Source: Mesorhizobium amorphae
GTDB taxonomy: Bacteria; Pseudomonadota; Alphaproteobacteria; Rhizobiales; Rhizobiaceae
NCBI RefSeq assembly: GCF_014843845.1
Contig: NZ_JHQS01000051.1
Coordinates: 248,001 to 312,000, forward strand
DNA: 64,000 nucleotides
Reading direction: 5' to 3'
Shown here: one piece after another, positions 6,245 to 40,481 of the stretch
How the letters are laid out: the number at the start of each line of letters is the position of its first letter
How positions within the stretch are numbered: position 1 is the first letter of the stretch
Notes under the pieces: generated by a model
Told to the model about the DNA's origin: nothing
Database searches by the model: none
The model's input: the letters and a program-made list of their open reading frames with translations, nothing else
Position numbers and translations under genes: made by a program

Positions 6245-6590
6245 GAAGTGGAGGTTTCTGTTGCCAGGTACCTCCGAACCCCGCCTAGAAGTGCGAACCT
6301 CTAGGGCTTGATTTGAAGCGTTCGCACTGCATTAAGCAGCGAGACGAGCTTCCGCATAGTTGTCGTTGGCAACTATAAGTTTAGCCCGATGACGGTGGTA
6401 CAATGCCGGGCAAAAGTACGATCTTTACACCTTCGTCGATCCTATTTCGCCCCCAGCAGAAGCCGCTCCTTTGAAAGAGCGGTTTTTGGTGGAGGCGCCG
6501 GGTACCGCCCCCGGGTCCGAACGGCTTATTTCATCGCCTATTTATCGCCATAGTCGGTCAAGCCGACAAAACGAATATAGGGGCCGATCA
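6245..6590 (-). ncRNA. ssrA: Circularly permuted two-piece tmRNA
   Basis: Read on the minus strand, an acceptor piece ends at ACCA (6490-6487) after the 3' acceptor strand CGCCTCC (6497-6491). An internal spacer (6486-6455) follows, then the coding piece starts GGGGGCG (6454-6448). These two strands pair over 7 bp with one G-U. A T-stem CCGGG/CCCGG flanks a 7-base loop at 6514-6498. The tag frame runs 6370-6332 and reads ANDNYAEARLAA then TAA, the rhizobial tag type (the charged Ala is added ahead of it). Downstream, GTGCGAAC/GTTCGCAC and GGAGGT/ACCTCC form hairpins. Order acceptor-spacer-coding is the alphaproteobacterial permuted arrangement. Outer ends are approximate. A TTGACA at 6632-6627 may be the -35; the -10 is unclear. 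Confidence 0.93.
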
Positions 6591-6774
6591 TGGAAAATGA
6601 AAGGCCGCAATGTCCTTTCGTGCATGTGTCAAACTGGATCGTTGAGGATTGACTTGCTCGCGCGCTCAACCGAAGCTTCCGGGCGGTGAGGAGTTTCAGC
6701 CTAGCGCACAAGTTGCGTCAGCACGCCACAACCCTCATCGACCGGATCCGTGGCGCCGACGAGGGGAATTTTTC

Positions 6775-7086
6775 ATGGCCGACTATCTCGCAGACGTGAA
6801 GAAGTACGACGCCGGCGCCAGCGCCGATGCGGTCGACAAGATCGTGAAGCATCTGGGCATTGCGCTGCGCAACCGGGATTCTTCGCTGGTGTCCTGCACC
6901 GATCCCAAGGAACTGGAGCGCGTCAGGGAGAATTGGGCCGCGAAGAAGCTCGGCGTCGCCGACGCCGGCAAAGCGGACGCGTCGATCGAAAAGACCTGCA
7001 AGGCGATGGCCGCCGACAACACCAAAAGCCGGGTGACCTTCTACTATCTGGTCGCGAAAGATCTGGGCAAGCTCGGCGCCCTCTGA
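6775..7086 (+). CDS. DUF2853 family protein
   Basis: A 103-residue protein beginning MADYLADVKKYDAGA, with the DUF2853 pattern (VDKIVKHLGIALRNRDSSLV, then the KAMAADNTKSRVTFYYLVAK end). It is small, soluble, mostly helical and of unknown function. The ATG at 6775 is chosen because GAGGGG lies 9 bases upstream; the frame is open further back but that part looks non-coding. The stop codon is immediately followed by the first copy of the long hairpin element. Confidence 0.8.
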   Translation: MADYLADVKKYDAGASADAVDKIVKHLGIALRNRDSSLVSCTDPKELERVRENWAAKKLGVADAGKADASIEKTCKAMAADNTKSRVTFYYLVAKDLGKLGAL

Positions 7087-7228
7087 GACCTTTTTGATAA
7101 TTCTACTCTGGCGGCCGACTGACACGGTCTTCTGCGCTTCCGGTGCTCACGTACTTTAAGTACGCTCCGCTCCGGTTCTCGAAAACCACGCCATTCGACT
7201 CGCCAGAGCGAATTCTGAAAAAGGTCTC
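7085..7228. repeat. Long hairpin element, copy 1
   Basis: The outer arms GAGACCTTTTTGATAATTC (7085-7103) and GAATTCTGAAAAAGGTCTC (7210-7228) are complementary except for 3 positions. Inner arms CTCTGGCG (7106-7113) and CGCCAGAG (7201-7208) pair perfectly. The centre carries the core shared with the other two copies: CTTCCGGTGCTCA, then the palindrome CGTACTTTAAGTACG, then CTCCGCTCCGGTTCTCG. It begins inside the stop codon of the DUF2853 gene. Confidence 0.85.
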
Positions 7229-7337
7229 CACCGCATCGGCCCGAAACAGGGGCCAGGATGGGGAAGACTTTAGACAAGCGTGGCGTCAGCGCGTACTTGC
7301 GCTATGATTGGCGAAACCTCGAATCGAGCCGGAACCG

Positions 7338-8132
7338 ATGCGCCAGTATCTCGACCTGTTGAAGCATGTGCTGGAAAACGGCGTCGATCGCGGCGACCGC
7401 ACCGGCACGGGCACGCGTGGGGTGTTCGGCCACCAGATGCGCTTCGATCTGTCGCGCGGCTTTCCGGTCACCACCACCAAGAAGCTGCATATGAAGTCGA
7501 TCATCCATGAGCTCCTGTGGTTCCTGGCTGGCGACACCAACATCAAATACCTCAACGATAACGGCGTCTCCATCTGGGACGAATGGGCGGACGAGAATGG
7601 CGATCTCGGCCCGGTCTACGGCAAGCAATGGCGCTCCTGGCCGGACGGCCATGGCGGCGGGATCGACCAGATTGCTGGCCTTCTGAAGGAGATACGCAAG
7701 AATCCCAATTCACGTCGGCTGATCGTTTCGGCGTGGAACCCGGCCGAGGTGGAGGCGATGGCGCTGCCGCCCTGCCACTGCCTGTTCCAGTTCTACGTTT
7801 CTGAGGGCAGGCTCTCCTGCCAGCTCTACCAGCGCTCGGCCGACATTTTCCTCGGCGTTCCCTTCAACATCGCCTCCTATGCGCTGCTGACCCTGATGGT
7901 GGCGCAGGTGACGGGGCTAAAGCCCGGCGATTTCGTCCATACGCTCGGTGACGCGCATCTCTATTCGAACCATTTCGAGCAGGCGCGCGAACAGTTGCAG
8001 CGCACGCCCAAGGCGCTGCCGACGATGTGGATCAATCCGGAGGTCAAGGACCTCTTCGCCTTCCGCTTCGAGGACTTCCGGCTGGAGAACTACTTCGCCG
8101 ATGCGTCGATCAAGGCGCCGATCGCCGTTTAG
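7338..8132 (+). CDS. thyA: Thymidylate synthase
   Basis: Converts dUMP and methylene-tetrahydrofolate to dTMP and dihydrofolate. Starting at ATG 7338 the protein is 264 residues, the same length as E. coli ThyA. The catalytic Cys146 is in [18 protein letters not shown] binds phosphate near residue 21, and [10 protein letters not shown] and DAHLYSNH motifs are intact. An in-frame GTG upstream would add ten residues but has no support. In many rhizobia thyA sits next to folA; here folA is 13.8 kb away. A hairpin element starts at its stop codon. Confidence 0.95.
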
Positions 8133-8300
8133 GTGTGTCGATATTCAGGTGATGTCGGCCTGCAAATGGCGGCTTCCTGCGCTTCCGGTGCTCACGTACT
8201 TTAAGTACGCTCCGCTCCGGTTCTCGGAACCCACCTTGTTTGGTCGCTTCGCGCCCATCTTCGACTCCGACTCGGCCTGACCTGAATCTCAACGCACCTA
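8130..8300. repeat. Long hairpin element, copy 2
   Basis: The core (about 8175-8227) is identical to copy 1 over nearly 50 bases. The outer arms are different from copy 1 but complementary to each other: 8130-8150 (TAGGTG...ATTCAGGT) pairs with 8280-8300 (ACCTGAAT...CACCTA) at 18 of 21 positions. The left arm starts inside the thyA stop codon. Confidence 0.85.
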
Positions 8301-8343: not shown

Positions 8344-8550
8344 TCAATCGATGCCGACCATGACGTCGGACGCCTTGATCACGGCATAGGCTTGCTTGCC
8401 CCTTTCGAGCTTGAGGTCGTCCACCGCCTCATTGGTGATCGAAGCGGTGACGACGGCGCCGCCAATGTCGATGCGGACATGCGATGTGGTGGCTCCCTTG
8501 ACGATCTCGATGATCGTTCCCTTGAGGGTGTTGCGGGCGCTGATCTTCAT
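8344..8550 (-). CDS. Molbindin (Mop/TOBE-domain molybdate-binding protein)
   Basis: A 68-residue single TOBE domain: MKISARNTLKGTIIEIVKGA followed by TTSHVRIDIGGAVVTASITN and AYAVIKASDVMVGID. This is the exact size of Mop proteins, which assemble as hexamers and store or buffer molybdate in the cytoplasm. The ATG at 8550 is preferred over one four codons earlier because GGAG lies 6 bases upstream of it. It is divergent from modABC, and the shared gap contains a ModE-like inverted repeat. Confidence 0.85.
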   Translation of the reverse strand: MKISARNTLKGTIIEIVKGATTSHVRIDIGGAVVTASITNEAVDDLKLERGKQAYAVIKASDVMVGID

Positions 8551-8640
8551 GGGAGGCTCCATCGCTCTATTCAGTAAAGGTCATCGTAGGCCGAGAAAAC
8601 CCCGGCATACAATGCCGTAGCCCGCGAAAGGCCTTTCCTT

Positions 8641-29113: not shown

Positions 29114-29905
29114 ATGCGTTTCCATAAAGCGGAATCCGCATTTTTCGTGTTTATTTTCGTGATCCTGGCCGCCGGCCTGGTGACGCTGCACGCCTATGGT
29201 CTTCTGCAAGGCATCGCGACCGACCTGGATACGGCCTCGCGCATCGAAAAGATCGTCTATCTCAACAAGTTGTTGTTTGCGACCGGCGTGCTTCTGGCAA
29301 CGGCGCTGTTCTTCGGCGTCTTCTTCATTTACCCGATGATCCGCGGTCAGGCGACGGAAGAGGGCAAGCTGCGCGCCATGACCGTCTCGCTCAGCGCGCG
29401 CTCGGAGACACTGGAGCACGCAGCGCTGACCGACGGCCTGACCGGCATGCAGAACCGCCGCTATTTCGACGATGCGCTGAAGGAATATCTCGAGGAATTC
29501 CGCCGCATCGAAAAGCCGGTTGGGCTGATGATCCTCGACCTCGACCATTTCAAACAGGTCAACGACACGCATGGCCACGATGTCGGCGACGAGGTGCTGA
29601 GGGCGGTCGCCGGCTGCCTGAAGGGCATGACCCGCTATCACGACGTGGTGGCGAGGCTCGGCGGCGAGGAGTTCGCCGTGGTGACGCCGAACATGGACGC
29701 CGAACTGCTCTCCAAATTCGCCGAACGCATCCGCAAGGCGATCGCCAACATGTCGGTTCTGTCGGGCAATGTCCGGCTGAAGATCACCACCAGCGTCGGC
29801 CTCGCCGTCTGGGACCGCAAGGAAACGGCCGAGGATTTCTACCGACGCGCCGACCGCCAGCTTTATGAAGCCAAGAGGCAGGGACGCAATCGCGTCTGCG
29901 CCTAA
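29114..29905 (+). CDS. Membrane-anchored diguanylate cyclase (GGDEF)
   Basis: A 263-residue protein with two N-terminal membrane helices (AFFVFIFVILAAGLVTLHAY and LLFATGVLLATALFFGVFFI), a short linker and a GGDEF domain from about residue 105 (LTDGLTGMQNRRYFDDAL). The signature is GGEEF (ARLGGEEFAVV), an active variant, and the metal site DLDHFKQVNDTHGHDVGD is intact. It should make cyclic di-GMP. No canonical RxxD inhibitory site is evident five residues upstream. ATG 29114 has GGGGAG before it. A hairpin element begins at its stop. Confidence 0.9.
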   Translation: MRFHKAESAFFVFIFVILAAGLVTLHAYGLLQGIATDLDTASRIEKIVYLNKLLFATGVLLATALFFGVFFIYPMIRGQATEEGKLRAMTVSLSARSETLEHAALTDGLTGMQNRRYFDDALKEYLEEFRRIEKPVGLMILDLDHFKQVNDTHGHDVGDEVLRAVAGCLKGMTRYHDVVARLGGEEFAVVTPNMDAELLSKFAERIRKAIANMSVLSGNVRLKITTSVGLAVWDRKETAEDFYRRADRQLYEAKRQGRNRVCA

Positions 29906-30048
29906 AATCCCATCATTGAATTCGCGATGCTGGCCGTATGCTGCCGTTTTCTGTGCTTCCGGTGCTCACGGACTTAAATGTCCGCTCCGCTCCGGTTCTC
30001 GAAAACGGCACCATCCGACTCAGCCTGACGAATTCACTGATGGGATTT
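29905..30048. repeat. Long hairpin element, copy 3 (variant core)
   Basis: The outer arms 29905-29924 (AAATCCCATCATTGAATTCG) and 30029-30048 pair at 19 of 20 positions. Inner arms GCCGTTTTC (29943-29951) and GAAAACGGC (30001-30009) pair perfectly. The core keeps CTTCCGGTGCTCA and CTCCGCTCCGGTTCTCG but its central palindrome is CGGAC-TTAAAT-GTCCG instead of CGTAC...GTACG, a paired change that keeps the stem. It starts at the stop codon of the GGDEF gene. Confidence 0.85.
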
Positions 30049-30121
30049 ACCCACGCTGGCCAACGAAGCTGAGCCCCTGGAAGCTCAAATATCGTTGGCA
30101 GGAGGATCCAGTGCCAGGGAC

Positions 30122-40302: not shown

Positions 40303-40311
40303 TCCGCGACC

Positions 40312-40362
40312 ATGAAAACGGCACTCATTCTCGTAGGAAAGCGCGTGGGCAAGGCGGTGTAA
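40312..40362 (+). CDS. ilvIH leader peptide
   Basis: A 16-residue ORF, MKTALILVGKRVGKAV, with Leu-Ile-Leu-Val in tandem at codons 5-8. It lies between the promoter and an intrinsic terminator in front of acetolactate synthase. Ribosome stalling at these codons when branched-chain aminoacyl-tRNAs are scarce would control read-through, as in classic ilv attenuators. Confidence 0.85.
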   Translation: MKTALILVGKRVGKAV

Positions 40363-40395
40363 CCGCCGGGCGAAAACCTCCCATGCGCACACACA

Positions 40396-40417
40396 GGCTC
40401 CCTCGGGGGCCTTTTTT
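40396..40417 (+). terminator. ilvIH attenuator terminator
   Basis: GGCTCCCTCGGGGGCC (40396-40411) folds into a short GC stem with a tetraloop-like CTCG, followed directly by TTTTTT. It lies 34 bases after the leader-peptide stop and 65 before the ilvI start, the position of an attenuator. Confidence 0.8.
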
Positions 40418-40481
40418 ATTGCCCGAAACACGACTAAACGACCAGCAATCGCCAGATGGCGGACAGTACGGGACCAGACCG

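Follow-up and report, generated by a model that had tools for sequence, protein, structure and literature searches.

The window analysed here, a stretch of 64,000 nt from Mesorhizobium amorphae (NCBI RefSeq assembly GCF_014843845.1, contig NZ_JHQS01000051.1, positions 248,001 to 312,000 of the forward strand), contains a gene for a DUF2853 protein followed by a thymidylate synthase gene (thyA), and the stop codon of each is abutted by a long hairpin element, called w1 and w2, respectively (Table 1). Both elements were described in an earlier note on this DNA, and we found them at the same positions, spaced by 1045 nt. They share a 65-nt stretch with 92% identity, and the first arm bases do lie inside plus-strand stop codons, namely, TGA (7084-7086) of the DUF2853 gene and TAG (8130-8132) of thyA. 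The reported complementarity of the outer arms was reproduced in w2 (18 of 21 positions), while that in w1 amounts to 17 of 19 positions and not 16. The arms of the two elements had also been called unrelated in sequence; this is correct for the outermost ~10 nt, which vary from copy to copy, but w1 and w2 represent different subfamilies, within each of which the inner arm is conserved. A third copy, w3, is located directly 3' of the TAA stop (29903-29905) of a GGDEF gene, and the genes around it are convergent. Besides these elements, Rfam identified an alphaproteobacterial tmRNA gene closely upstream of w1 (window 6247-6606, minus strand) and a homologue of the Atu_C8 sRNA (window 40308-40427, plus strand).

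Table 1. Hairpin elements and adjoining genes in the window (positions as numbered in the window; for the elements, the strand is the structured one)
Feature	Position	Strand	Remarks
w1, type B element	7085-7228	-	covariance model match 7229-7084 minus, 112.6 bits
w1 stop-side outer arm	7085-7103		by TGA of DUF2853 gene
w1 distal outer arm	7210-7228		
w1 conserved core hairpin	7133-7181	-	exact core match C80:255133-255175
w2, type A element	8130-8300	-	covariance model match 8274-8128 minus, 92.2 bits
w2 conserved core hairpin	8178-8226	-	exact core match C80:256178-256220
w3, third copy, type B	29903-30050	-	covariance model match, 112.9 bits; absent from the earlier note
DUF2853 gene	6775-7086	+	Pfam PF11015, E 2.2e-36; stop codon abuts w1
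Thymidylate synthase gene (thyA)	7338-8132	+	Pfam PF00303, scanned from 7341; stop codon abuts w2
TOBE-domain gene	8344-8562	-	Pfam PF03459; convergent, on the far side of w2

The elements are built from a core of 48 nt between two arms of ~47 nt each, a length that is almost constant, and measure ~142-171 nt as a whole; in w2, the distal arm has 27 nt extra. One and the same core is combined with two arm families: type A (w2), with the conserved inner arms GATATTCAGGTGATGCCGGCCTG / CGGCCTGACCTGAATCTC, and type B (w1 and w3), with the conserved inner arms TCTACTCCGGCGG / CGCCGGAGCGA. Copies without the core, composed of the arms only, also occur (e.g., L041, L044, L046, L047, and L049). At L050 of the M. 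amorphae genome (C115:226904-226936), the apex motif is found in a hairpin with still other arms, from which more arm families probably exist. At L199, L201, L204, and L378, furthermore, the element is interrupted near its core by another short hairpin repeat, GGCCTTCGCCGGCCGAAGC...GGCTACGG.

In the M. amorphae genome, there are 10 near-exact cores (at most three mismatches) and 54 blast matches to w2 at E ≤0.01, pieces being counted, and the exact core pattern is present in 118 of 146 Mesorhizobium genomes. By using the core as a probe (at most four mismatches per core half), we collected 275 distinct copies, which means that the conservation of the core is partly by construction, and grouping by flank reduced these copies to 178 locus groups. 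Type A was defined by two different rules, giving 190 or 211 copies, and the type-A statistics below kept 182 to 200 copies after those without both arm anchors had been dropped. At least 117 stretches matching the family were obtained in a genome scan, where the carriers among the matches listed include Mesorhizobium, Pleomorphomonas, Bosea, Devosia, Agrobacterium, Phyllobacterium, Asticcacaulis, and Sphingosinicella together with genomes of Methylobacterium and Acetobacteraceae assembled from metagenomes. On plasmids, w2 has partial matches in 34 records, which include 14 from Sphingobium and 6 from Shinella, and no copies were found in phages with w1 as a query. When Rfam 15 was searched, w1, w2, and w3 matched none of its families at the gathering threshold, and for w1 and w2 there was no match even at E up to 5. 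The family is best explained as a dispersed, non-autonomous hairpin element of alphaproteobacteria.

The copies are placed with precision relative to stop codons. In 121 of the 178 locus groups, an in-frame stop, counted when preceded by at least 40 open codons, has its end at a distance of 45-49 nt upstream of the core; the same 5-nt window catches only 1-24 loci when shifted by 20 to 100 nt (denominators of the outward-shifted windows being somewhat below 178) and 22 at the mirror position on the far side. The stop-to-core distance peaks at 47 nt in type A and at 45-48 nt in the others, and among 200 type-A copies, 26 are without a counted stop nearby and 21 have a stop inside the element. 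TAG is preferred in type A (85/149) and TGA in the other copies (27/47), to be compared with TGA in 25, TAG in 8, and TAA in 5 of the 38 coding-looking ORFs of the window. Of 194 type-A copies, 181 have a plus-strand gene on their left; on their right, the neighbour is plus in 100, minus in 82, and unclear in 12 cases, about half of the copies being located between tandem genes. Judging from the stop registration and the direction of the left gene, therefore, the expectation of the earlier note that copies elsewhere sit at stop codons in sense orientation mostly holds. One inherited copy (L009, L144, L173, L181, L272, L299, and L349) is found directly behind the T-run of an intrinsic terminator instead of a stop codon.

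The two arms of the element covary. Each of the outer columns 1-10 is Watson-Crick paired in 127-171 of 189 type-A copies, numbers that none of 200 shuffles reached, and pairing in columns 11 and 12 does not exceed the shuffled maximum; as many as 175 haplotypes of the outer ~10 nt were distinguished among these 189 copies. In 48 copies picked for diversity, two-sided changes were detected in 29 of 49 pairs, compared with 13.6 after shuffling (none of 500 shuffles was as high) and with 12-17 pairs when the partner was slid. Compensatory changes thus exceed both the shuffled and the slid controls, as is expected of a structured RNA. Covariation was seen not only among copies but also between orthologues at one site (see below), and both lend support to the earlier proposal of selection for a long hairpin.

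This selection has a strand polarity. While the plus-strand RNA folds of w1 and w2 are already far from chance (z-scores of −6.3 and −4.2, respectively), the z-scores on the minus strand are −10.7 and −5.3, and the fold energy of w1 is −79.1 kcal/mol on the reverse strand versus −57.9 kcal/mol on the gene-sense strand. Folding favours the reverse strand in 258 of 275 copies (238 when only the arms are considered), in 169 of 178 locus groups, and in all of the 64 non-A copies; the invariant core by itself accounts for 3.5 kcal/mol in favour of the reverse strand. For 182 type-A copies, an alignment that also leaves out copies with an extra arm insert, the RNAalifold consensus was −73.9 in reverse versus −22.0 in forward. 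The 49 pairs of these 182 copies comprise 7764 Watson-Crick pairs, 740 reverse-strand G·U pairs, 86 A·C pairs, 300 other combinations, and 28 gaps, in which shared ancestry is contained. Nearly half of the G·U pairs (366/740) belong to three columns with G·U as a common inherited state, and G·U still amounts to 374 versus 82 for A·C when those columns are excluded. When the whole arms were aligned symmetrically, with disturbance from gaps and a conserved C·A position, the asymmetry was only weak in the outermost 14 columns (GT+TG 104, AC+CA 134).

Because G and T abound in the outer 5' arm, unequal rates in the two arms could mimic such a bias, and four pair classes were therefore separated. 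Single changes in type A led to G·U and A·C, respectively, in 11 and 4 cases from A-U, 23 and 6 from C-G, 112 and 22 from G-C, and 101 and 17 from U-A; by column, 34 favour G·U, 3 favour A·C, and 12 are even. A difference in rate between the 5' and 3' arms was hence rejected as the source of the G·U excess, which holds whichever base or arm changed. Strand-biased mutation was also rejected, with no matching bias at the unpaired columns (per 1000, C>T 8.1, G>A 6.4, A>G 17.3, and T>C 24.6). What has been preserved, then, is pairing on the strand opposite to the stop-abutting gene, where G·U is tolerated and A·C is not.

One of the sites where the element has been inherited lies behind a gene that we take to be cysH-like. 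Of its 54 loci, 50 have the element or, by eye, a remnant of it, 3 have another hairpin, and 1 has nothing, and many of the copies are decayed or truncated. In 31 element-bearing loci (the truncated, half, and empty loci and those with other hairpins being left out), there are 27 two-sided Watson-Crick changes of nine kinds, compared with a mean of 9.8 and a maximum of 18 after shuffling, and the one-sided changes consist of 58 reverse-strand G·U, 22 sense G·U, and 62 other mismatches; these counts are relative to the majority base and not to a reconstructed ancestor, and the relatives are non-independent, L092 and L214 being identical. Matched double changes were also noticed in other orthologues (L034/L146, L031/L156, and L009 + L173 versus L144 + L181). 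At a second inherited site, full, arms-only, and scar states were all found. One old, inherited copy sits between two genes of the same direction, which are probably an operon. At L205, L208, and L215, cysH-like sites without the element, unrelated hairpins begin at or near the stop codon.

Sites without the element reveal the origin of the arms. In the 25 readable empty orthologues of the M. amorphae copy L005, only a short spacer is present, and 26 of 30 loci at the thyA site have no element; as none of them has arm sequences by eye, the arms are brought in by the element and co-evolve afterwards. In several genomes, the spacer between the DUF2853 gene and thyA is free of w1 and holds another palindromic repeat, of the CCCCGTATAGTGACGGGGAGAA type (L055, L062, L063, L068, L072, L074, L076, and L080). 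Direct target duplication, a mark of MITEs, was examined in 138 type-A copies and rejected (mean flank score of 6.64 versus 6.37 in swapped controls), and inverted flank duplication was rejected with pairing beyond column 10 inside the shuffled range. The earlier note had supposed that an insertion mechanism might match the arms to each site; with armless empty sites, no direct duplication, and no pairing above the shuffled range past position 10, this idea is not supported. An exception with a repeated gene end is provided by the half elements L035 (in M. amorphae, at the cysH-like site), L231, and L067 (at the thyA site of genome G030), all of which end at the apex of the hairpin and continue with a second, partly altered copy of the last bases of the upstream gene. 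This rearrangement is recurrent and perhaps reflects a replication slip at the hairpin.

Distant copies were searched in 76 genomes of the class with a covariance model built on the reverse strand, and matches were obtained in six of them, M. amorphae included. The others include G155, an AT-rich genome of 1.8 Mb, with 30 matches and G164 with 13. From G155, 29 loci were fetched and 23 were aligned, six not fitting the search pattern. The reverse strand is the more stable one in 22 of these 23 loci, with a consensus of −34.3 versus −16.2; G·U outnumbers A·C by 92 to 12, more than one Watson-Crick type is seen at 31 of 42 pairs, and 16 of the 23 have a stop codon whose end is 24-33 nt upstream of the first conserved motif. 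A display of the distant loci covers 19 of 21, two being without a recognisable apex (the apex of L440 was taken as spurious). As for mobility enzymes, Y1 transposase (PF01797) has no match in the M. amorphae genome or in G155 and is matched in G164 and G188; reverse transcriptase has none in G155 and three matches in M. amorphae.

In our best reading of these sequence patterns, to which we would assign a probability of about 0.5, the element is constrained as an RNA antisense to the stop-abutting gene and may play a role at a boundary. The preserved molecule would be an RNA read from the reverse strand, either as the tail of the transcript of a convergent gene or by antisense transcription from downstream, and it would fold into a rod of ~50 pairs right where an antisense transcript would enter the 3' end of the gene. 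Such a rod might be a boundary at which the antisense transcript is stopped or cut, for example by a double-strand-specific RNase; we guess at this act because it fits both the position and the strand. Some of the findings count against the antisense reading. The right neighbour is on the minus strand in just 82 of the 194 type-A copies, so that it is not evident where a reverse transcript would come from. At the cysH-like site, other one-sided mismatches are as common as reverse-strand G·U (62 and 58), and an antisense role does not predict the exact abutment on the stop codon. In Thalassospira, moreover, small RNAs with the apex motif correspond to the strand that is gene-sense here, as far as the available part of that report goes, in which the gene context does not appear (PMC6413936). 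Any function would also be dispensable, since the cysH-like site includes decayed and truncated copies and 4 of 54 loci without the element. Only tentatively do we consider that the element is addressed to stop codons as an antisense functional RNA with a fixed 47-nt arm, which would either mark a boundary to antisense transcription or spread via an RNA intermediate recognising translation ends.

RNA is the likelier but not the sole reading of the G·U tolerance, because single-stranded DNA also tolerates G·T better than A·C. Folded single-strand DNA intermediates are known in IS200/IS605-type and integron attC recombination, and the hairpin could be kept as bottom-strand single-stranded DNA, a folded intermediate of a mobile element in which the tolerance of G·T reflects folding of DNA. 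The strand polarity and the dispersal, the single orientation relative to the left gene, and the absence of general target duplication would all agree with this, but we regard it as somewhat unlikely: neither M. amorphae nor G155 has a match to Y1 transposase (the enzymes searched were Y1 transposase and reverse transcriptase), and one inherited site, at which mobility should give no selection, shows compensation and the G·U bias as well.

It is unlikely that the hairpin acts in the gene-sense direction on the mRNA of the stop-abutting gene, through termination, stability, or an effect on the ribosome. The location of most copies downstream of stops in sense orientation and the good folding of the sense RNA as well would be accounted for in this way; the Thalassospira small RNAs are of the gene-sense strand (PMC6413936, available part), and REPs of Escherichia coli at 15 nt or less from the stop are described as affecting translation (PMC12306157). 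The pairing is, however, preserved on the other strand, and a T-run directly 3' of the hairpin, the mark of an intrinsic terminator, is absent by eye on either strand at both w1 and w2; the element at L018 and L036 is followed further on by a terminator-like hairpin that does have a T-run. With the old copy inside a probable operon in addition, the role in termination or stability of the gene's transcript that the earlier note had proposed is not upheld.

Quasipalindrome correction is a hairpin-templated repair from arm to arm, and it could copy one arm onto the other with no selection involved. Such repair would leave clustered changes that mend a mismatch otherwise conserved in most cases, as seen in L199 (GCTATTC/GAATAGC, the 3' arm of which recurs in L224) and in L157 versus L112 (GGCTTTCATTC/GAATGAAAGCC), but it gives no cause for the excess of G·U over A·C on one strand, and the strand asymmetry observed in young mismatches argues against it as the sole cause; we thus judge it quite improbable. 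Finally, insertion of the element into the loop of a pre-existing 3'-end hairpin, with the outer arms as old target sequence, is hardly credible: small stop-abutting hairpins do exist at some empty sites (e.g., TGAGCC..GGCTCA behind thyA), but the arm sequences appear in 0 of 25 readable empty L005 sites and 0 of 26 element-free thyA loci by eye, which contradicts it at both sites, and the arm length is nearly fixed.

Among known repeats, the likeliest kin of the element are RIME and CIR. RIME1 and RIME2 are Rhizobium-specific intergenic mosaic elements, reportedly described by Osteras in 1995, and CIR are Caulobacter intergenic repeats, said to come from Chen and Shapiro in 2003 under a title that refers to DNA methylation sites. 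Going by these titles and not by a comparison of sequences, both are, like the element, long repeats between alphaproteobacterial genes, and this core may be part of them. A mosaic build is a trait of RIME, and two arm families on one core are found here. GACTC and GAATC are present in the type-A consensus of 10 M. amorphae copies and may represent GANTC, the CcrM methylation site. Integron attC sites are imperfect palindromes by stop codons, where the bottom strand folds and the arms diverge yet stay paired; the element is also a stop-adjacent imperfect palindrome with a reverse-strand fold and divergent but paired arms. Unlike attC, in which the reverse is the case, the apex is conserved and the foot is variable in our element, which ends in GTTG..CAAC in contrast to YAAC..GTTR of attC; the RYYYAAC / GTTRRRY consensus of the terminal attC boxes does not agree with the end composition of 200 type-A copies.

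REPs, which the accessible text of one report describes as palindromic extragenic units of 20-40 bp that can lie near stop codons and form the super-families GTAG and CGTC (PMC3733652), resemble the element in being palindromic, extragenic, and near stop codons but differ from its ~142-171 nt with near-fixed arms of 47 nt. The M. amorphae genome is also without Y1 transposase, although the transposase is not required for CGTC repeats. In the available part of a Bradyrhizobium study, Br-REP1 and Br-REP2 are repeats of 3' UTRs that form parts of larger repeats, small RNAs complementary on both strands are suggested for them, and sense and antisense transcription starts cluster near ORF ends (PMC5082802). 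The heptamers GAATCTC/GAGATTC of the Br-REP consensus given there are also in the type-A arms, whereas the palindromes of that consensus are far shorter, and this core is not recognised in them by eye (PMC5082802). A description of this core was not found in the literature searched, the original sequences of RIME and CIR being outside the comparison. While the class of repeat is known, the strand polarity and the exact registration to stop codons look new.

Palindromic repeats at the 3' ends of genes are usually viewed as terminators or stabilisers of mRNA. In the family described here, the substitution pattern puts the constraint on the opposite strand and not on the strand of the gene's own mRNA, and in several distant alphaproteobacteria the position of the element relative to the stop codon is fixed almost to the base. 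It is now testable whether antisense RNAs at the ends of genes carry selected structures and also how a repeat family finds stop codons.
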